Part shown: positions 19,923 to 31,885 of the stretch, in pieces
Layout of the letters: every line of letters begins with the position of its first letter
How positions within the stretch are numbered: the stretch's first letter is position 1
NCBI GenBank assembly: GCA_029568995.1
Contig: JAKPYU010000310.1
Coordinates: forward strand, 1 to 43,299
From: Candidatus Omnitrophota bacterium
GTDB lineage: Bacteria; Hinthialibacterota; Hinthialibacteria; Hinthialibacterales; JAKPRU01
Length of the DNA: 43,299 nt
Direction of reading: 5' to 3'
Program-made: the position numbers and the translations under genes
Notes under the pieces: generated by a model
Databases searched by the model: none
The model's input: the letters and a program-made list of their open reading frames with translations, nothing else
Told to the model about the DNA's origin: nothing

Positions 19923-20882
19923 TTGATTCCGAGTTCTCGCACATTCGATTCCCCGCTCGATATTCTCCTGGCGGAGGATGATCCGGTTACGCAACGACTG
20001 ATTCGGGGCATCCTTGAACGGTTCGGTTATGCGGTTCAGGTTGTTGCGGATGGCAAACAGGCCTTCGAGACCATTCGAACCTCCGGCGTTCAGTTCCTGA
20101 TCACGGATTGGGTCATGCCCGAGATGGAGGGACCGGATTTATGCAAGCGGATCCGCGAAGAGATCCGGGATCGTTATATCTACATCATCCTATTAACGGC
20201 GCGTGCGGAGACCGCGGACATCATCAGCGGGATTGAAGCCGGGGCGGATGACTACCTGGTCAAACCTTTCGAGCCGGATGAACTGCTGGTTCGGATCCGT
20301 GCGGGACAACGTGTCATCACGCTGGAGCGGCGGCTGAATGAGGCGCAGGAGCAGCTGCGTTTTCTTGCTTTCCACGATGATCTGACCGGTCTCTTGAATC
20401 GCCGTGCCGTATTGGATCGTCTTCGAGAAGAGATTGCGCGATCCGGAAGGCAGGATACGCCGTTGTCGGTGATTTTTTTCGATATTGACCATTTCAAACG
20501 CATTAACGATACCTATGGACATTTGGCAGGAGATCGGATTCTGAAAGGAGTCGCCGAGCGCGTCGGCAAATTATGTCGTGCCTACGATGTGTTTGGTCGA
20601 TATGGTGGAGAGGAATTTGTCATTCTGATGCCCGGGACCAGTCAGTCTGCCGCTGCCTGCGTAGCCGAGCGCATTCGCCGTGCCCTGGCCGCCGAACCGA
20701 TTCTGACTCAACCGGAAGCAATTGGCTTAACCGCGAGTTTCGGGGTTTGCGAAATGACGTCGGATCGGGAGGTTGAAACCGATTTGATTATGAAATCTGT
20801 CGATGAGGCCTTGTACCGGGCGAAGGAGGGAGGGCGGAATCGGGTTTGTGTTGCCGGGGACGATATTCTCTCGACAGAATGA
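19923..20882 (+). CDS. PleD-like response regulator with GGDEF diguanylate cyclase domain
   Basis: The 319-residue protein joins a receiver domain (residues 12-130) to a GGDEF domain (about 150-312). In the receiver the acidic pair is E18/D19/D20, the phospho-acceptor is Asp62 (LITDWVMP), with Thr92 and Lys114 as switch residues. The cyclase part has FDIDHFKRINDTYGH, the active-site GGEEF at 228-232 and an intact inhibitory site RAYD (219-222) five residues before it. It should make c-di-GMP when phosphorylated and be product-inhibited. The start is TTG, with AGAAGGA about 5 nt upstream; no in-frame ATG is available. It is the first gene of the signalling block after the rRNA terminator; no histidine kinase is next to it. 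Confidence 0.92.
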   Translation: MIPSSRTFDSPLDILLAEDDPVTQRLIRGILERFGYAVQVVADGKQAFETIRTSGVQFLITDWVMPEMEGPDLCKRIREEIRDRYIYIILLTARAETADIISGIEAGADDYLVKPFEPDELLVRIRAGQRVITLERRLNEAQEQLRFLAFHDDLTGLLNRRAVLDRLREEIARSGRQDTPLSVIFFDIDHFKRINDTYGHLAGDRILKGVAERVGKLCRAYDVFGRYGGEEFVILMPGTSQSAAACVAERIRRALAAEPILTQPEAIGLTASFGVCEMTSDREVETDLIMKSVDEALYRAKEGGRNRVCVAGDDILSTE

Positions 20883-22118: not shown

Positions 22119-23237
22119 CTAAGTGTTCCCGCGCAAGATATTCAAGATCTGCTCTCCGGAGCGTGCCAACAGGCTGAGCAACGCATCGGTAACTTCCTTG
22201 TCGTACGCCGTTCCCCGGTTTTCTTTGAAGTAGGTGGTGATCTGCGATGCGGGCCAGGCCGGCTTATAGCAACGCTCGGTCGCCAGCGCATCACATACCT
22301 CCGCCACAATCAGCATTCGGCTGGGCAGAGCGATTTCCTCCCCTTTGAGGCCTTGTGGATATCCTTTCCCGTCCACTCGTTCATGATGTTCATGAACGAA
22401 CACGGAGACTTCCGCCAGGGAGCCGATGGGAGCCAGGATCTTGTAGCCGGTCTCCGAATGCGTCTTCATGATTTCATATTCTTCCGGGGTCAGCTTATCG
22501 GGTTTGAGCAGAATGCTATCGGGAATCCCGATCTTTCCGATATCGTGAAGCAGACCCGCAATCCGCAGAGATTCATTGTACTCTCCGGGCAGGGAAAGCT
22601 CGCGGGCAAGAGTCAAGACAAAGTTGGAAACCCGTGCACCATGTCCTTTCGTATAGGGATCTTTGGCTTCCAAAGCCAGAGACAACGATTCGATGGAATG
22701 AATCAGGAATCCCTTGATTTCCCTGGTTTGTTCTTCCACCTTCTGTTCCAGATAATTTCGATACTCGATGTTCTCCAGAACCAGCCGTCTTCGCTCCAAC
22801 GCGCGCGAGGCAATCAGTTCCACCAGGTCCAGGTTGAAGGGTTTGGTGAGAAAGTCGTAGGCCCCCAGCCGGACGGCCGAGACCGCGTCCTCCAGGGTCG
22901 GCTGGCCGGTCATGAGAATGACCGGAATGTTCTGGTCCAGAACAATGACATCTCTCAGGATATCGATACCGGTCAAGCCAGGCATATAAATGTCCGTATA
23001 CACGAGGTCGAAGTCGAACTGCCTGCTGCGAATGCGTTCGAGCGCTCGGCGCCCGTCGGTGAATTGTTCCGTTTCATATCCCAGCATTCGGAGAAATTCG
23101 CTCAGCATTGCACAGATGTCGACCTCATCGTCGATTACAGCGATGCGTTGCTTGAGATCGGATGTGTCTGGCTGGTATCGAGTGGACTGGATTCCTGGGT
23201 GCATACGCATATCTGGAAACAATGATATGATGATCAT
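22119..23237 (-). CDS. RpfG-like response regulator with HD-GYP domain
   Basis: The 372-residue protein has a receiver domain (about 30-150) and an HD-GYP phosphodiesterase domain (about 175-365). Receiver residues are D36/D37, phospho-acceptor Asp82 (VYTDIYMP), Thr110 and Lys132. In the output domain the metal-binding pattern is visible: H199 in KGHGARV, H231-D232 in LLHDIGKIGIPD, H260, H284-H285, and GYP at 292-294. The usual VADVFDAL block reads VAEVCDAL, so the Asp that commonly binds metal is Glu313. It should hydrolyse c-di-GMP and so oppose the cyclase at 19923. The start at 23237 is uncertain; the ATG codons at 23210 and 23204 are alternatives. It is transcribed divergently from the receiver-HEPN gene. 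Confidence 0.92.
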   Translation of the reverse strand: MIIISLFPDMRMHPGIQSTRYQPDTSDLKQRIAVIDDEVDICAMLSEFLRMLGYETEQFTDGRRALERIRSRQFDFDLVYTDIYMPGLTGIDILRDVIVLDQNIPVILMTGQPTLEDAVSAVRLGAYDFLTKPFNLDLVELIASRALERRRLVLENIEYRNYLEQKVEEQTREIKGFLIHSIESLSLALEAKDPYTKGHGARVSNFVLTLARELSLPGEYNESLRIAGLLHDIGKIGIPDSILLKPDKLTPEEYEIMKTHSETGYKILAPIGSLAEVSVFVHEHHERVDGKGYPQGLKGEEIALPSRMLIVAEVCDALATERCYKPAWPASQITTYFKENRGTAYDKEVTDALLSLLARSGEQILNILRGNT

Positions 23238-23332: not shown

Positions 23333-24577
23333 ATGGAACAGGATCGACTGATTCTTCTGGTTGATGACAATTCTCAGTACCGGTCTGCCGTGGCCCGAAA
23401 TCTCACGGTGGAGGGGTACCGCGTTCTGGAGGCGGAGGACAGTTCCCAGGCCCTGGAGCAGCTGCAGCGGGAATCTCCGGTGGCGATTATCACCGATCTG
23501 GACATGCGAACGCACGATGAGGGACTGCAATTGATCCAGCAGATCAAGCGGAGCTACCCGCATCTTCCGGTCGTGATGGTGTCGGCGGTTGGTGGTTTTG
23601 ATGAAGGGGCGCTGGCTCGTCAGTACGGGGCCATGTACGTTGTCAGCAAATCCAGGATCGATGCGGAGATCGAGAAGCTATACGAGCGGCTGGACCGGAT
23701 CTGCCGGTATCGGGATGAAATCGATGCACTGCGGGATCTTGTGGAAAGCGCCGACAATGAAGAGGGCATGGACCGTCGGCAGCTGTACCAACGACTGGAT
23801 CATCTGTTGCAGGAACAGGACCTGGATGCCGGAATGAAAGGGATCGTGTTCGAGCTGCGGGACCGGTTGGAGGTTTCTGACCGCATGAAGAACCGCTCGG
23901 AGCGCCCAACGGTCGATCTGGAGGGTTCCCTGAACGAATTGCGCAGATTTCTGCCGGAGTTGGATTCGCTCCATCCGGAGACCCAGACCATGCTGGCTAT
24001 CGGGTATCATTTGGAGCGCTCGGAGCCGAGTGCTGGCATGTCCGTCTCGCGGAATGCCTGCTTTTCCTATTCGTTTGCTGTTGAAAATGAGGTGAAGAAC
24101 CGGATTGGCAAGCGTGTGACCCGGTTCTTGACAGGCGGAGAGGCGGAGAAGATTCTTCGAGACCTTTATGATGCCAAAATTGACAATTTGGACATTTTTT
24201 TCAATCAATATATTGTGCGAACGATTCAGGCGAACGATCTGGATCTGAATTCGGACATTACACGCCAGGTTCTTGAACGGATGTTGCGCCACCGGCAGAA
24301 GTACAAGCCGGACGGTCTGAAAGCGTTAGGCGTGATGTTCTTTTGTTTTGGTCGAGCATTCAGTTTTCAGGGAATCAGCGGGACAGTGACGGTGAAGAAT
24401 CCCATGGCGTTGAAGGGATTGGATGACCATCAAACCATGAGGCTTTCGGGATTCCTGATTCGCCTGCAGCATCTGCGGAATCCGTTCGTGCATCCGGAGT
24501 TCAGCGATCGGGAGAAGACGGTGTCCATCCGGGACACGGCGATCGAGTGTCTCCGATTGGCATCGCACCTGGTATAA
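23333..24577 (+). CDS. Receiver-domain protein with a putative C-terminal HEPN domain
   Basis: The 414-residue protein has a normal receiver domain at residues 5-115: D11/D12, phospho-acceptor Asp55 (IITDLDM), Ser84 and Lys106. A helical linker follows (about 115-210). The C-terminal 200 residues match no output domain I know, with no helix-turn-helix, GGDEF or EAL. They are helix-rich and end with LQHLRNPFVHPEF, an R-N-x3-H arrangement (Arg382, His387) typical of HEPN domains, many of which are RNases or nucleotidyl-transfer targets. The HEPN reading is inference from the motif and its place near the C-terminus. The frame is open back to 23237, but the ATG at 23333 precedes the receiver directly. 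A short stem-loop lies after the stop. Confidence 0.7.
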   Translation: MEQDRLILLVDDNSQYRSAVARNLTVEGYRVLEAEDSSQALEQLQRESPVAIITDLDMRTHDEGLQLIQQIKRSYPHLPVVMVSAVGGFDEGALARQYGAMYVVSKSRIDAEIEKLYERLDRICRYRDEIDALRDLVESADNEEGMDRRQLYQRLDHLLQEQDLDAGMKGIVFELRDRLEVSDRMKNRSERPTVDLEGSLNELRRFLPELDSLHPETQTMLAIGYHLERSEPSAGMSVSRNACFSYSFAVENEVKNRIGKRVTRFLTGGEAEKILRDLYDAKIDNLDIFFNQYIVRTIQANDLDLNSDITRQVLERMLRHRQKYKPDGLKALGVMFFCFGRAFSFQGISGTVTVKNPMALKGLDDHQTMRLSGFLIRLQHLRNPFVHPEFSDREKTVSIRDTAIECLRLASHLV

Positions 24578-25806: not shown

Positions 25807-26148
25807 ATGATCAAGGTCAATAGCCGAAAACACAATGATATCGTGATTCTGGATCTGTTTGGCACGATTGATTTGGAGGGAATAGAGGCGGTGAAAGAAG
25901 CGATCAGCCGGGAGCGCCAATCCGGATGCAAAAAGATGATTCTGGGCATGAAAGGTGTGGACAGCATTGTCTCCAGCGTGATCCAGAGGCTTCAGTCGAC
26001 GATAACGGCCTTTTGGGTACCCGGCGGTCGGATTGTCCTGGTGGACCTCTCGGTCGGGAACAGGCGGGTGCTCGAAAAGCAGGCATTTTTCAAGATGCTT
26101 ATCGTGGCAGACACCGAGGAAGAGGCACTGGAGGCGTTGGCGAAATAG
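25807..26148 (+). CDS. STAS-domain protein (anti-sigma factor antagonist type)
   Basis: The 113-residue protein is a single STAS domain. It starts MIKVNSRKHNDIVILDLFGTIDLEGIEAV, the usual beta-strand opening followed by the GxID motif. The segment LGMKGVDSIVSSVIQRL (about residues 46-62) corresponds to the DSSG phosphorylation loop of SpoIIAA-like proteins; Ser53, or Ser56/Ser57, could be the phosphorylation site. GGRIVLVDLS and the C-terminal helix complete the fold. AAGGAGCGAAGGA lies upstream of the ATG. It is convergent with cheB. No anti-sigma kinase is seen in the window, so its partner lies elsewhere. Confidence 0.85.
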   Translation: MIKVNSRKHNDIVILDLFGTIDLEGIEAVKEAISRERQSGCKKMILGMKGVDSIVSSVIQRLQSTITAFWVPGGRIVLVDLSVGNRRVLEKQAFFKMLIVADTEEEALEALAK

Positions 26149-26167: not shown

Positions 26168-27265
26168 TCAATCGGATTTGGCAAAGCCGTTTCGTACCAG
26201 GTTCACAATGGCTTTCGGGATATCCTGCAGGGGAAGTACCTGTTCGGCTCCTCCCATCTCAATGGCTTCCTTAGGCATTCCAAAGACGACACAGGTTTGT
26301 TCGTTCTGGGCGATGGTGCGCGATCCGGTTTCCCGCATCTGGGTCAAGCCCCGAGCACCGTCTGCTCCCATGCCAGTCATGATCACACCGAGCGCGTTCG
26401 GTCCAATTTCGCGAGCCAGGGAGTGGAACAGGACGTCTACCGAAGGGCGATGACGCATGACCGGCTCGGATTGACTCAATACAGCAATATATCCCATCCC
26501 CGTCGGCTGTATGAGCATGTGCGAATGCCCGGGCGCAATGAGCGCCTTTCCCGATTCCAGCGGCTCGTGATCCTCGGCTTCCTTGACGGTCAGTTCGCAG
26601 AGTCCGTTGAGCCGGTTAGCGAATGCGCGCGTGAATCCCTCCGGCATGTGTTGCACGACCATGATGGGCGGCAGCTCTTTCGGAAGAGCCACCAGGACGT
26701 CTTTGAGCGCCTCAGTCCCCCCGGTTGAGGCCCCCATGCCGATGACCAGGCCTCCCGATCGAGTTCTTGGGATCGAGCCTTTGGGCAACGGAGGAATGGT
26801 GATCCTCGGAGGCGGTATGAATGACGCGGGCTTGGTCAGGAGACGTCGGCGTATATTGGCTCCGGCTACCGCTTTGATTTTCTCGATCAATGTGGCGGCA
26901 ATTGTGGGCATTCCCTCGGTTACGGAAGCGCTAGGCTTCGTTACAAAATCGACAGCCCCCAATTCCAGGGCTTTGATGGTCGCCACAGCGCCCCGTTCGG
27001 TTACCCCGCTTACCATGATCACCGGCACGGGATAGACCGACATTAATTCCGGCAGCAATTCCAGCCCGCCTTTTTGCGGCATCTCCACGTCCAGGGTCAC
27101 AACATCCGGTTTGAGAGCCTCCACTTTGCGGAGAGCGAATGTTCCGTCCGAGGCAGTCCCAACCACTTCGATCATCGGATCCTGCTGCAGCAGATCGGAG
27201 AGAATCTTCCGTACCAATGCAGAATCATCTACCACTAATACCCGGATTTTGTTTTTGGTTTCCAT
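26168..27265 (-). CDS. cheB: Chemotaxis protein-glutamate methylesterase/glutaminase CheB
   Basis: CheB removes methyl groups from chemoreceptors. The 365-residue protein has a receiver domain (residues 7-125; D14/D15, phospho-site in TLDVEMP, Lys in VTKPS) and a catalytic domain after a linker of about 40 residues. Catalytic signatures are visible: GMGASTGG with the nucleophile Ser, QHMPEGFT with the His, and MTGMGADGA with the Asp. It is the last gene of the leftward chemotaxis cluster, 54 bp after cheY, and is convergent with the STAS gene. It pairs functionally with CheR and CheA in the same cluster. Confidence 0.97.
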   Translation of the reverse strand: METKNKIRVLVVDDSALVRKILSDLLQQDPMIEVVGTASDGTFALRKVEALKPDVVTLDVEMPQKGGLELLPELMSVYPVPVIMVSGVTERGAVATIKALELGAVDFVTKPSASVTEGMPTIAATLIEKIKAVAGANIRRRLLTKPASFIPPPRITIPPLPKGSIPRTRSGGLVIGMGASTGGTEALKDVLVALPKELPPIMVVQHMPEGFTRAFANRLNGLCELTVKEAEDHEPLESGKALIAPGHSHMLIQPTGMGYIAVLSQSEPVMRHRPSVDVLFHSLAREIGPNALGVIMTGMGADGARGLTQMRETGSRTIAQNEQTCVVFGMPKEAIEMGGAEQVLPLQDIPKAIVNLVRNGFAKSD

Positions 27266-27319
27266 TCTTCCCGTTTCAGCCCATTCCTTCTGTTTCTGTA
27301 TTGATTGACCGTTCTGTTT

Positions 27320-27676
27320 TTATTTCAGTATGCGATTCACTGCTTCCCGAACCCGTTCCGTCGTAAACGGTTTGACGACGAATTCGCGGATTCCCAGGGA
27401 AATGGCTTTTTTCATAATACTTTCCTGCCCGAGTGCCGTGACCATGATGATCTTGGCGGACGGATCCTCTTCCAAGATCTCCCGGGCAGCCTCGATCCCA
27501 TCCTTGACGGGCATCGTGATATCCAGGGTCACCAGTTCCGGACGATTCTCGCGGTACAGAGACACCGCCTTATCGCCGTCCTCCGCCTCCAAGACCTCGT
27601 GTTTTTCTCTTTTCAGCATGCTGCGGAGAACCATCCGCATGAAATACGAGTCGTCGACTATGAGTATTCTGGCCAT
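27320..27676 (-). CDS. cheY: Chemotaxis response regulator CheY
   Basis: The 118-residue protein is a single receiver domain. It has VDDS near the start (Asp8/Asp9), the phospho-acceptor in LDITMP (Asp52), Thr in VTALGQE and Lys in VVKPF. The MPVKDGIEA and ALGQESIMKKAI segments are typical for CheY in clusters with CheC and CheD. Phospho-CheY binds the flagellar switch and is dephosphorylated by CheC. GGGA about 5 nt upstream supports the ATG. It lies between cheD and cheB. Confidence 0.95.
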   Translation of the reverse strand: MARILIVDDSYFMRMVLRSMLKREKHEVLEAEDGDKAVSLYRENRPELVTLDITMPVKDGIEAAREILEEDPSAKIIMVTALGQESIMKKAISLGIREFVVKPFTTERVREAVNRILK

Positions 27677-27830
27677 TTCAATCCCGATTCTTCCCTATTG
27701 CCTGCCGTTCTCTGGTGCACTCCGAATACCGCCCCAGTGCCTTGTTCCCATTCCGCCTTGTTGCACTATTCTTCTTCAACTCGGACGCGCAAGGTCCGCT
27801 TTGACTGTCCACCGGGACAGCCGGTCAATC

Positions 27831-28319
27831 TCATAGAAATTCGCGTTTGTTGACCTCCCGAACCAGGACTTTGCCGTTATCGGTTTGGAAAATCACTTTC
27901 CGCCCCCGGTCGCCTCCGACGTCCTCTGCAACGATCCGGATGCCGTTCTCGCGCAGGAATTCCCTGGCCACAGCGACATTCCGCTCGTTGATCATGGCAA
28001 ACGAGATCTGTGACAGCATGTGGGCGCCGCCGAAAATCTTGGCCGATGTTGTTCGAATATCCATGCCGAGCGCTTTCATCCGGTCGAGCAATTCCGGTAA
28101 CGCGGTCTTTCCGTATTTCCCGTTGTGCTTTGAGTCCACCTGGACGGATAGGGGAGGTGCGGGGAGCATGTGATGGTTCATGCCGGATATTTTGTTTTTG
28201 GAATCATACAGACACACACTGACGCAGGAACCGAGCACCGTCGATACCTGTTCGGCTTTTGTGGTGACGTAGATCTCTCCGATGCCGAGATTTTTTTGCG
28301 GAAGATTGTCCGTTGTCAT
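27831..28319 (-). CDS. cheD: Chemoreceptor glutamine deamidase CheD
   Basis: CheD deamidates receptor glutamines and partners with CheC. The 162-residue sequence has the catalytic Cys in VLGSCVSV (Cys32) and the catalytic His in SGMNHHMLP (His49), with AKIFGGAHML and NVAVAREFL as further family blocks. The length is normal. It lies 14 bp after cheC, as is common, and 154 bp before cheY. That gap holds no gene. Confidence 0.96.
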   Translation of the reverse strand: MTTDNLPQKNLGIGEIYVTTKAEQVSTVLGSCVSVCLYDSKNKISGMNHHMLPAPPLSVQVDSKHNGKYGKTALPELLDRMKALGMDIRTTSAKIFGGAHMLSQISFAMINERNVAVAREFLRENGIRIVAEDVGGDRGRKVIFQTDNGKVLVREVNKREFL

Positions 28320-28333
28320 CAGGTCTCTCGATA

Positions 28334-28924
28334 TTACCTCAACCGTGCCGCAAGGTTCTCCACAAGATTGGGAGAGGGCAGAAAGAGAAAATGCATTCCG
28401 ATCCCTCGCTCCGTTTCCGCCATATTGGTGTCCACCAGGATGGCCTTATCGGCGATCAGGCTCTGTTCCGCGATCAGTCCCTGCAGAACCGCCGCGAGCA
28501 TGTCATATACGAAGAAGGGTTCTGTGGGACGCAGTTCCAGGCCGACACGATCCGCCAGCGTGTTGAGAAAACAGCTGCCCACGACGTTCGCCAACTCGCG
28601 AAGCGCCGAGGGATTGGACAGGTTGATCACGCCATCCTCGAACGGAACACTTCCCCAGAGCATCTCATTTAATTTCCTCGCATTTTCCTCGTACATCAGG
28701 AAGACCATGTAGCCGCTGTTATCCCCGGTGATCCTCAGAATGATCATTGCCATGGGAGTGTCCGGCGGATACAGGGTTTCACACAGATCTTCGAAGGGGA
28801 TTTGCTCGATGCGATTGACCTGAATGCCCAGCGGACGGCCGATCATCATTTCCATAGACCGTCCTGCCAGCTCGGCACCTTCCGAAAAAACGGACTTGAT
28901 TCGTTCGAGTACTGTATCGTCCAT
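28334..28924 (-). CDS. cheC: CheC-type CheY-P phosphatase
   Basis: The 196-residue protein belongs to the CheC/CheX/FliY phosphatase family. The catalytic pattern D/S-x3-E-x2-N-x22-P is matched exactly in the C-terminal half by Ser106, Glu110, Asn113 and Pro136. The N-terminal half, where CheC normally has a second such site, is degenerate (GAELAGRSMEMMIGRP). It therefore has one predicted active site. Its start codon overlaps the cheA stop by one base (TAATG), which indicates translational coupling. CheC also binds CheD, which is encoded next. Confidence 0.9.
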   Translation of the reverse strand: MDDTVLERIKSVFSEGAELAGRSMEMMIGRPLGIQVNRIEQIPFEDLCETLYPPDTPMAMIILRITGDNSGYMVFLMYEENARKLNEMLWGSVPFEDGVINLSNPSALRELANVVGSCFLNTLADRVGLELRPTEPFFVYDMLAAVLQGLIAEQSLIADKAILVDTNMAETERGIGMHFLFLPSPNLVENLAARLR

Positions 28925-31017
28925 TATACTCCCAACGTCTCCTGAATCAGGGCGGCCACATCGAGGATCAGAATCACACTTCCGTTCCCCAGGATGGATG
29001 CGCCCGCGATATAACTGGATCGCTGTTCGTGTGCGCCCAGGGACTTGATGACGATTTCCTGTTCATTGACCATCCGGTCCACAATCAAACCGACATGTTG
29101 GTTTCCGTGTCGCACAATGGCGATATAGATTCGACCATTTGTCTCTCGACGAACCGGAGTGTCGAGCACATGATCCAGTCGCAGGATGGGAACGACACCT
29201 TCCCGCAAGCGGATCACTTCCCCCCTGCCTTCGACCGTGAATATGTCATTGTTGGTGATTCGCAAGGTTTCGGTGACGTTTGCGATGGGCAATGCGAACA
29301 TCTCGGAACCGGCTTCCACCAGCAGAGCCTGGATGATTGCCAGGGTCAGAGGCAGGCGTATGGTGAAGGCCGTTCCCTTTCCCAGTTCTGTTTCGATGTC
29401 GACATTCCCCCCCAACTCGTCGATGGTTCGTCTGACGACATCCATCCCAACTCCCCGGCCCGAAATGTCGGAGACAACCTGGGCCGTCGAGAAGCCCGGC
29501 TGAAAGATGATCTGAAGGACCTCTCGATCCGGTAGTTGGCTGATGGCTTCTTCCGTATACATACCCCTTTCGATCGCCTTCTGTTTGATCTTCTTCAGAT
29601 CGAGTCCTTTGCCGTCGTCTCGAACGGTGATGGTGATATTGTTGCCCTCATGGGATGCGGCCAGAGTCAGTTTGCCCTTGACGGGTTTTCCGGCGGCGAT
29701 TCGCTCCGCTGGGGACTCAATCCCGTGATCGACTGAATTTCGAATCATGTGGGTCAGGGGATCCCCGATGACGTCGATGATTTTCTTATCGATTTCCGTT
29801 TCCTCGCCTTCGAGGATCAAGTCCACCTCTTTTTCCCGTCCGTGAGAGAGATCCCGCACGACACGATGGAAACGCTGGAAGACTTGGCCCACGGGAACCA
29901 TCCGGGATTCCATAATGGCTTCCTGCAGCTGGGTGATGATCATGCCCTGCTGGACCAGGCTGTCGAGCAGGAAACTTTCCTCCCCGGTGTTGCCCCGGCG
30001 GGCGGCCAGCTGCTGCCCCAGTTCAATCGCTCTTCCCCGGTTAATGACCAGTTCCCCGGCGAGATCCAGCAGGCGATCCAGTTTCTTGATATCCACGCGT
30101 ACGGTTTGAGTTCGGCTCCGGTCTTCGCGCCGGTCGAAGGAGGTTGACGGCTGTTTCTCAGCCTCGGCGGTCGGCACTTCCACTTGGGCCGGGGCTACCG
30201 ATTCCGGCACCTGTTCCGGAGATTTCTTTTCGGATTCATCCGGCCACTCAAATTGCTCTGCCTGGGTGACATCCCGCGTGATCACTTTCTGGACCTGTCC
30301 CACTGAGCAACCGTTGCGAACATCCGATTCGGATGAATCCGTTGCAAGAATAAAGGAGAAGCCCTTCTCCACTACGGCGTTTTCGTCCTGTTCCACATCG
30401 GGTTCACAGACCAGAATATCTCCCAGAGATCGCATGTTGTTGCAGATCAGGAAGGCACGGGTTGCGGCCATGGGGATATTGTCTTCGAAAAAGACGTCTA
30501 CTTCATAGATTCTGTGTCCCGCAAGGCGGTATTCCTCGATTCGGTTTCGTCTTGTCTCATCCAACCGGATCCGTGGAACCTTCGCCGTCGGAGTTTCTAC
30601 GGCCTCCGGCGGTTGGATCGCGGCCAGACTATGGAGGCGTGTAATGAGATTCTTGCTCTGCTGTTTCACCTGATTTTTGTGGGTTTCGGATTCCTGATCG
30701 CCCAGGCTGGAAAGCATTTCCTTGAGCAGATCGAACGACTCAAACAGGGCTGTGATGACATCGCTGGTGATGGGGGCCTTCTCGTCCCGCATTTTCGTCA
30801 GGACGTCCTCCATGGTGTGGGTGAATTCGCTGATGTGCATGAATCCCACCATCGCGGAAGAGGATTTCATGGTGTGGGCCGCCCGAAAAATGGCCTGCAA
30901 CGGTTCCGGATTCGCCGGATTCTGCTCCAGGGCCAAGAGCGCCTCGTTCATCAGTTCCAGATGTTCCTCGGCATCCTGGTAGAACAGTTCGATGTATTGG
31001 TTGGTATCGAATTCCAT
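28924..31017 (-). CDS. cheA: Chemotaxis histidine kinase CheA
   Basis: The 697-residue protein has the CheA order. First is an Hpt domain with phospho-His48 (RAAHTMKSSSAMVG), then a CheY/CheB-binding-like region (about 165-270) and a Pro/Glu-rich linker (about 270-305). A dimerisation domain with LAGELVINRGRAIELGQQL follows. The ATPase domain has HMIRNSVDHGIE (N box), VRDDGKGLD (G1), and SDISGRGVGMDVV (G2). A CheW-like domain closes the protein. The ATG at 31017 has AGAGGTG nearby; the frame extends upstream without Hpt features. It lies between cheR and cheC, with stop/start overlap to cheC. Confidence 0.97.
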   Translation of the reverse strand: MEFDTNQYIELFYQDAEEHLELMNEALLALEQNPANPEPLQAIFRAAHTMKSSSAMVGFMHISEFTHTMEDVLTKMRDEKAPITSDVITALFESFDLLKEMLSSLGDQESETHKNQVKQQSKNLITRLHSLAAIQPPEAVETPTAKVPRIRLDETRRNRIEEYRLAGHRIYEVDVFFEDNIPMAATRAFLICNNMRSLGDILVCEPDVEQDENAVVEKGFSFILATDSSESDVRNGCSVGQVQKVITRDVTQAEQFEWPDESEKKSPEQVPESVAPAQVEVPTAEAEKQPSTSFDRREDRSRTQTVRVDIKKLDRLLDLAGELVINRGRAIELGQQLAARRGNTGEESFLLDSLVQQGMIITQLQEAIMESRMVPVGQVFQRFHRVVRDLSHGREKEVDLILEGEETEIDKKIIDVIGDPLTHMIRNSVDHGIESPAERIAAGKPVKGKLTLAASHEGNNITITVRDDGKGLDLKKIKQKAIERGMYTEEAISQLPDREVLQIIFQPGFSTAQVVSDISGRGVGMDVVRRTIDELGGNVDIETELGKGTAFTIRLPLTLAIIQALLVEAGSEMFALPIANVTETLRITNNDIFTVEGRGEVIRLREGVVPILRLDHVLDTPVRRETNGRIYIAIVRHGNQHVGLIVDRMVNEQEIVIKSLGAHEQRSSYIAGASILGNGSVILILDVAALIQETLGV

Positions 31018-31042
31018 TGTGCACCTCTGTCTCTCGTGGGCA

Positions 31043-31885
31043 TCATCTCCGGGTTGGCTTCTGGTATACCGATGCCATGATAAATTCAAAATCCGTTGCC
31101 ATCCCGTGAAGGGTCTCGGAATGTCCTAAGAAGAGGTACCCGCCAGGGCGAAGTACCTCGTAATATTTCATCATGAGTTCTTCCTGGGTTTGCCGGTCGA
31201 AGTAAATAATCACATTTCTGCAGAATACGATATCAAATCCTTTCAGCTGGCGTTGAAACGGATCGTTGAGATTGATCTTGTCGAATTCGATCAGACGCTG
31301 CAGTTCGGGCTTGACTTTGACTCTTCCGGCTCCCTTCAGGAAGTACTTGTGGAGCAGAACAACGGGGATGCCGCTTACTTTGTCTTCGGGGTAAATTCCC
31401 TCCCGTGCCGTTCGGAGGGCGCTGTCGCTGATATCAGAGGCCAGGATCGAGACCGGTCGTCCCGGCGAACGTCGTTGAGCCTCCAGGGCGGAAATGCCGA
31501 TGGTGTACGGTTCCTCTCCGGTGGAACAGGCGCTGCTCCAGATTCTCACGGCTGCGGAGCCGAGTTTCAGATCCAGAAGATGCGGCCATACATGGCCATC
31601 CAGGAATTCAAATTGCTTTCCTTCCCGGAAGAATTGGGTCGTATTCGTGGTGATCGCATCGACCATCCTCGCCAGCTCTTCCTGCCTTCCTTTGGTCGAG
31701 ACAACGTACTTATAGTAATCCCCGTAGGAATCCATATTCAGCTCGCGAAGACGTTTGGCCAGACGGTTCATTACCAGCATCTTCTTATGAGGGCGAAGAG
31801 CGATGCGGCTTTCCTGATAGATCAAATCCCGAAACTGCTCGAACTCGAGCTGGGACATCTGTTTCTGAGTCTGGGACAGAGCCAA
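31043..31885 (-). CDS. cheR: Chemotaxis protein methyltransferase CheR
   Basis: CheR methylates receptor glutamates with SAM. The 280-residue protein has the N-terminal helical domain (LEFEQFRDLIYQESRI and RLAKRLRELNMDSYGDYY) and the catalytic domain. Motifs are TTNTTQFFRE, RIWSSACSTGEEPYTIG (SAM-binding), ILASDISDSAL, FDIVFCRNVIIYFD and GGYLFLGHSETL. The start used is TTG at 31885; an ATG nine codons later (31858) is equally possible. It lies between cheW and cheA, 25 bp before cheA. Confidence 0.96.
   Translation of the reverse strand: MALSQTQKQMSQLEFEQFRDLIYQESRIALRPHKKMLVMNRLAKRLRELNMDSYGDYYKYVVSTKGRQEELARMVDAITTNTTQFFREGKQFEFLDGHVWPHLLDLKLGSAAVRIWSSACSTGEEPYTIGISALEAQRRSPGRPVSILASDISDSALRTAREGIYPEDKVSGIPVVLLHKYFLKGAGRVKVKPELQRLIEFDKINLNDPFQRQLKGFDIVFCRNVIIYFDRQTQEELMMKYYEVLRPGGYLFLGHSETLHGMATDFEFIMASVYQKPTRR

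Follow-up and report, generated by a model that had tools for sequence, protein, structure and literature searches.

A two-component response regulator with a probable HEPN-type output domain, conserved as a core gene in two bacterial phyla

Response regulators mostly bind DNA, make or break c-di-GMP, or act through protein partners. ANTAR response regulators are two-component regulators that act on RNA; their ANTAR domain is small, binds RNA, and has no predicted catalytic function. In PorX, a REC domain is followed by a three-helix bundle and an effector of the alkaline phosphatase superfamily, and phosphorylation drives dimerization of the protein (PMC11320123). HEPN domains, many of whose characterized RNases serve in defense or toxin systems, have as their hallmark an Rx4-6H motif with Asn, Asp, or His directly after the Arg, located at the end of helix 3 and the start of the loop to helix 4 (PMC3710099). 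According to the same survey, helix 2 of many HEPN families carries a second motif, the acidic Ex3[KR], helices 2 and 3 are often separated by inserts, and there are non-catalytic HEPN proteins, including many members of the MtlR family, that typically come without Rx4-6H (PMC3710099). Receivers are mentioned there only as domains that take the place of HEPN behind a shared membrane domain (PMC3710099), and in the open-access literature (subscription papers were outside the scope of the search) we found no paper describing a HEPN domain as the output of a receiver. Here, we describe a response regulator for which such an output appears probable.

Domain architecture of the regulator

The window, i.e., the whole 43,299-nucleotide stretch of DNA from a “Candidatus Omnitrophota” bacterium that was analyzed, contains a response regulator gene (positions 23333 to 24577, plus strand) whose 414-aa product combines a receiver, a helical linker, and a HEPN-like output domain. 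The open reading frame starts with an ATG, with GGTGG just upstream. There is an alternative longer TTG start at 23237, and the closest orthologues start at the ATG of 23333. By full-length match, the regulator is single-copy in its own genome.

Judging from its sequence, the product is a two-component response regulator with a CheY-like receiver that includes the acidic pair, the phosphoacceptor Asp, the Ser/Thr, and the Lys residues. The receiver (residues 5 to 108; positions 23345 to 23656, plus strand) matches PF00072 over residues 7 to 113 with an E value of 1.9e-19, and D11, D12, the phosphoacceptor D55, S84, and K106 are kept in all 11 full-length proteins of alignment A1. The initial annotation, which had described a fully equipped receiver with Asp55, Ser84, and Lys106 joined to a helical C-terminal region of about 200 residues, was thus correct on the receiver, and its C-terminal region corresponds to a 218-residue domain, predicted to be mostly helical, at residues 197 to 414 (positions 23921 to 24574, plus strand), for which a separate AlphaFold model was built. 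Between the two lies the linker (residues 109 to 186; positions 23657 to 23890, plus strand), with helices at residues 109 to 140, 148 to 159, and 166 to 186 in the AlphaFold secondary structure, in the position of the PorX three-helix bundle. The residues C-terminal to the receiver gave no Pfam or NCBIfam match above the cut-off, and the regulator had no ANTAR match in Pfam. Its receiver-level sequence hits included the ANTAR response regulator Rv1626 (1s8n). A Foldseek search with the full-length model retrieved receivers and receiver-plus-helix proteins (e.g., PorX, NtrX, and RssB), with none for the output domain among the matches listed.

Motifs and predicted fold of the output domain

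The HEPN-type output had been proposed from the R382-N-P-F-V-H387 motif (positions 24476 to 24493, plus strand), which is the sole Rx4-6H in the whole protein. We rejected the presence of this motif as evidence by itself: after shuffling of residues 200 to 414, 88% of the sequences held at least one Rx4-6H, i.e., the motif is found no more than expected by chance, and 8.5% held R[NDH]x3H. Since Rx4-6H is expected by chance, the real test is its conservation. Among 38 orthologues, 22 positions are invariant, including R382, N383, P384, H387, E251, K255, and D327-G-L-K-A331.

A more stringent comparison is provided by a second, distant family, in which the domain forms the C-terminus of ~700- to 1000-aa proteins from another phylum (with a match in 46 of 58 genomes) and shares ~20% identity with the output domain of the regulator. 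R382, N383, H387, and E251 are invariant in the 32 sequences of the two families combined, as in all 38 orthologues. Altogether, E251, D327, G328, K330, A331, Q379, R382, N383, and H387 (plus F248, if gaps are ignored) are invariant across both families, and position 255 is occupied by Lys in 18 sequences and Arg in 14, never by any other residue. Thus, Arg382 and His387, whose conservation across homologues was the check named in the initial annotation, are both invariant and are joined by N383 and an upstream E-x3-[KR] motif. The D327-G-x-K-A block, part of the conserved D327-G-L-K-A-L-G333 stretch (positions 24311 to 24331, plus strand), shows the same invariance as the R/H motif and lies outside the described HEPN signature. 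That these polar residues are retained together in such distant sequences points to a putative active or binding site.

In paralogues that diverge still further, RNxxxH is kept where the alignment was read and Asp replaces E251; HEAT repeats were detected in one divergent paralogue. The 700- to 1000-aa proteins at loci L214 to L223 (alignment A6) form a large family, all from one phylum; the RNRAAH and E-x3-R motifs of their C-terminal domain are strictly conserved, and the domain is not covered by any Pfam family. Sub-threshold Pfam hits of this sister family include the HEPN-type DUF4145 (E = 0.034) and Abi_2 (E = 0.21).

The AlphaFold model of residues 197 to 414 (pLDDT 90.7, pTM 0.89) has four main helices, at residues 215 to 229, 236 to 267, 365 to 382, and 392 to 410, and the full-length model gives the same helices. 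Between helices 2 and 3 there is an insert of ~97 residues, predicted to form several helices and a beta hairpin, that includes the D327-G-x-K-A block. In this model, the E251-x3-K255 motif (positions 24083 to 24097, plus strand), with its invariant Glu and ever-basic last position, falls within helix 2, whereas R382, followed by the polar N383 of the conserved R-N-x3-H, ends helix 3 and H387 lies in the loop that leads to helix 4. The helix order, the positions of both motifs, and the insert in this predicted structure all agree with the published description of HEPN (PMC3710099). However, a Foldseek search of the output-domain model against PDB and BFVD gave no significant match, though PDB contains HEPN structures; a search of the two-family profile against PDB sequences yielded no match; and none of the HEPN families gave a significant profile match. 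In hhalign comparisons with small alignments of DUF4145, Abi_2, and Abi_C, the scores did not exceed that of the best control; the match with Abi_2, which scored no better than that control, places R-N-x3-H in register. Because the motif content and order correspond to HEPN but no fold or profile match was found, we name the domain HEPN-like only, a designation supported by its sequence and predicted structure. The initial proposal of a HEPN-type output is thus supported in part, by the invariant R-N-x3-H and E251-x3-[KR] motifs and the helix order.

The same lack of matches, the ease with which Rx4-6H arises by chance, and the extra invariant block outside the HEPN description would fit an unrelated all-alpha domain, either another enzyme or a partner-binding module, with a convergent HEPN-like motif. 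Such convergence would have to account for two separate HEPN signatures that are invariant, at the described helix positions, in two families with only ~20% identity, and we consider it unlikely, although worth keeping in mind. It is also rather improbable that the domain has the HEPN-superfamily fold and, instead of cleaving RNA, binds RNA or a protein partner under the control of phosphorylation. Non-catalytic HEPN proteins of the MtlR kind offer a parallel, and the large insert with its D-G-x-K-A block might serve in binding; however, such domains typically lose Rx4-6H (PMC3710099), and here the Arg, Asn, His, and helix-2 Glu residues are all invariant. On the basis of the motifs and the model, the output domain is probably a HEPN-type RNase controlled by phosphorylation.

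Phyletic distribution, partner kinase, and gene neighborhood

The output domain was found in all 14 genomes of the window's own phylum, in 35 of 40 genomes of a second phylum, taken to be Sumerlaeota, including 20 of the 20 good ones (completeness of at least 90% and contamination of at most 5%), and in two further genomes, one of them of the UBP4 type. Named relatives come from metagenome-assembled genomes (MAGs) labeled “Omnitrophota” and “Candidatus Hinthialibacteria” OLB16. There is one copy per genome, except where a broken copy is divided between contigs or frames, and a receiver precedes the output domain in 39 of the 40 reading frames examined, the exception being an incomplete stretch (a frame-disrupted copy in genome G010, locus L020, was excluded from the alignments). 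Searches of viral contigs, plasmids, and phages revealed no relative. A weak match in genome G408 covers only a helical stretch with the motif absent and was taken as chance, and the PADLOC hits (SduA and PD-T4-6) are weak and confined to the receiver. The regulator is a core single-copy gene in two phyla and is not mobile, so the framing in terms of toxin, CRISPR, and defense systems in the initial annotation did not hold up. A phosphorylation-controlled toxin or anti-phage effector, as the roles of many characterized HEPN RNases might suggest (PMC3710099), is very improbable for a gene with this distribution, with no relatives in mobile elements, with PADLOC matching only its receiver, and with mostly envelope, signaling, and housekeeping genes as neighbors.

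In most loci of Sumerlaeota and in UBP4-type loci, the regulator gene is directly preceded by a gene for a histidine kinase of 640 to 733 aa, with 4-bp overlaps of the two genes at several loci. In most members of this kinase family that were examined, two hydrophobic, membrane-spanning-like stretches flank a region of ~140 to 180 residues. Of three members that were scanned, all have HATPase_c and one has GAF, and the GHD box is invariant. Among the 193 genomes searched, all 17 with the regulator encode a member of the kinase family, compared with 0 of the 176 that lack the regulator. Where the two genes are unlinked, each genome has one strong kinase match, far above its other kinases; this is the case in the window's genome, which encodes the partner kinase on another contig (G000:C314:29107-30975). 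This perfect co-occurrence, together with the gene adjacency, provides strong evidence that the membrane histidine kinase and the regulator are a cognate pair. The window's genome has a second, partial kinase match (G000:C512:7331-8032), a copy that may reflect redundancy of the MAG, whose listed contamination is 7.2%. An hhalign similarity over 45 columns (30% probability) links residues 205 to 250 of the regulator, at the start of the output domain, to the kinase sequence that precedes the GHD box. It is probably due to chance, as part of it comes from an “SRN-[LI]-G” stretch absent from the window's own kinase.

At ten loci, an LptE-like lipoprotein gene lies upstream of the kinase gene, preceded at six of them by a LolA-like gene, all in Sumerlaeota; Pfam searches confirmed LptE in three of four proteins and LolA in both proteins tested. 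Within Sumerlaeota, this gene neighborhood suggests that the kinase-regulator system is linked to outer-membrane biogenesis.

In the window, the regulator gene adjoins a divergent gene for a receiver-HD-GYP protein (positions 22119 to 23237, minus strand), as the initial annotation had it. This adjacency is kept only within the window's genus, and in one other genome of the class the corresponding position is taken by an HD-GYP gene that lacks a receiver, so the arrangement is mostly local and HD-GYP was rejected as a fixed partner. Close to the receiver-HD-GYP gene is one for a receiver-GGDEF diguanylate cyclase (19923 to 20882, plus strand), so that regulators that make and break c-di-GMP are encoded beside the regulator gene. 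Farther along the window, after a gene for a STAS protein (25807 to 26148, plus strand), there is a chemotaxis cluster on the minus strand (26168 to 31089), which encodes CheB-like (26168 to 27265), CheY-like (27320 to 27676), CheD-like (27831 to 28319), and CheX/CheC-like (28334 to 28924) proteins and CheA (28924 to 31089; confirmed by Pfam). By raw count, six loci in three phyla (L085, L091, L093, L094, L151, and L157) have a gene for a PilT-like ATPase, of the kind that retracts type IV pili, within ~6 kb of the regulator or kinase gene.

Proposed mechanism and comparison with known systems

We give even chances to a two-component system, probably responsive to the envelope, with a phosphorylation-controlled HEPN-type RNase as its output, for which we infer phosphotransfer, HEPN homology, RNase activity, dimerization, and the envelope signal. 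The membrane kinase, with its putative extracytoplasmic region, would sense a signal that probably arises in the cell envelope and phosphorylate D55 of the receiver. The phosphorylated receiver would then dimerize or rearrange via the helical linker, which might pair or free two C-terminal HEPN-like domains. E251, R382, N383, and H387 would form a metal-independent RNase site, and cutting of RNA could directly change RNA stability or translation. More tentatively, and at somewhat less than even confidence, we propose that in at least two phyla a membrane kinase tied to the biogenesis of the envelope activates, through phosphorylation, a HEPN-type nuclease whose cleavage of cellular RNA belongs to core physiology, not defense. 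If true, cutting of RNA upon phosphorylation would be a new kind of response regulator output, and a HEPN-type enzyme would be placed in universal housekeeping signaling instead of conflict systems. With the kinase partner found by co-occurrence, both points are directly testable.

Compared with RNases of the HEPN superfamily, such as DUF4145, Abi_2, Csx1, RNase LS, and KEN (PMC3710099), to which no fold or profile match was found, the output domain has a longer insert with an invariant D-G-x-K-A block of its own, is fused to a receiver, and is encoded by a universal core gene, not a conflict gene. With PorX (PMC11320123), the regulator shares a receiver, a helical segment of ~80 residues, and an effector of an enzymatic type with more than 200 residues. 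Foldseek aligns the two over ~230 columns, yet only the receiver superposes (TM score 0.27 of the query, rmsd ~12), and the PorX effector is a zinc phosphodiesterase and not helical, whereas the output domain of the regulator is predicted to be mostly helical. PorX is a precedent for a receiver and a helical bundle joined to an enzyme in a protein that dimerizes upon phosphorylation, and the regulator described here appears to represent a known regulator class with a previously undescribed output, probably of the HEPN type.
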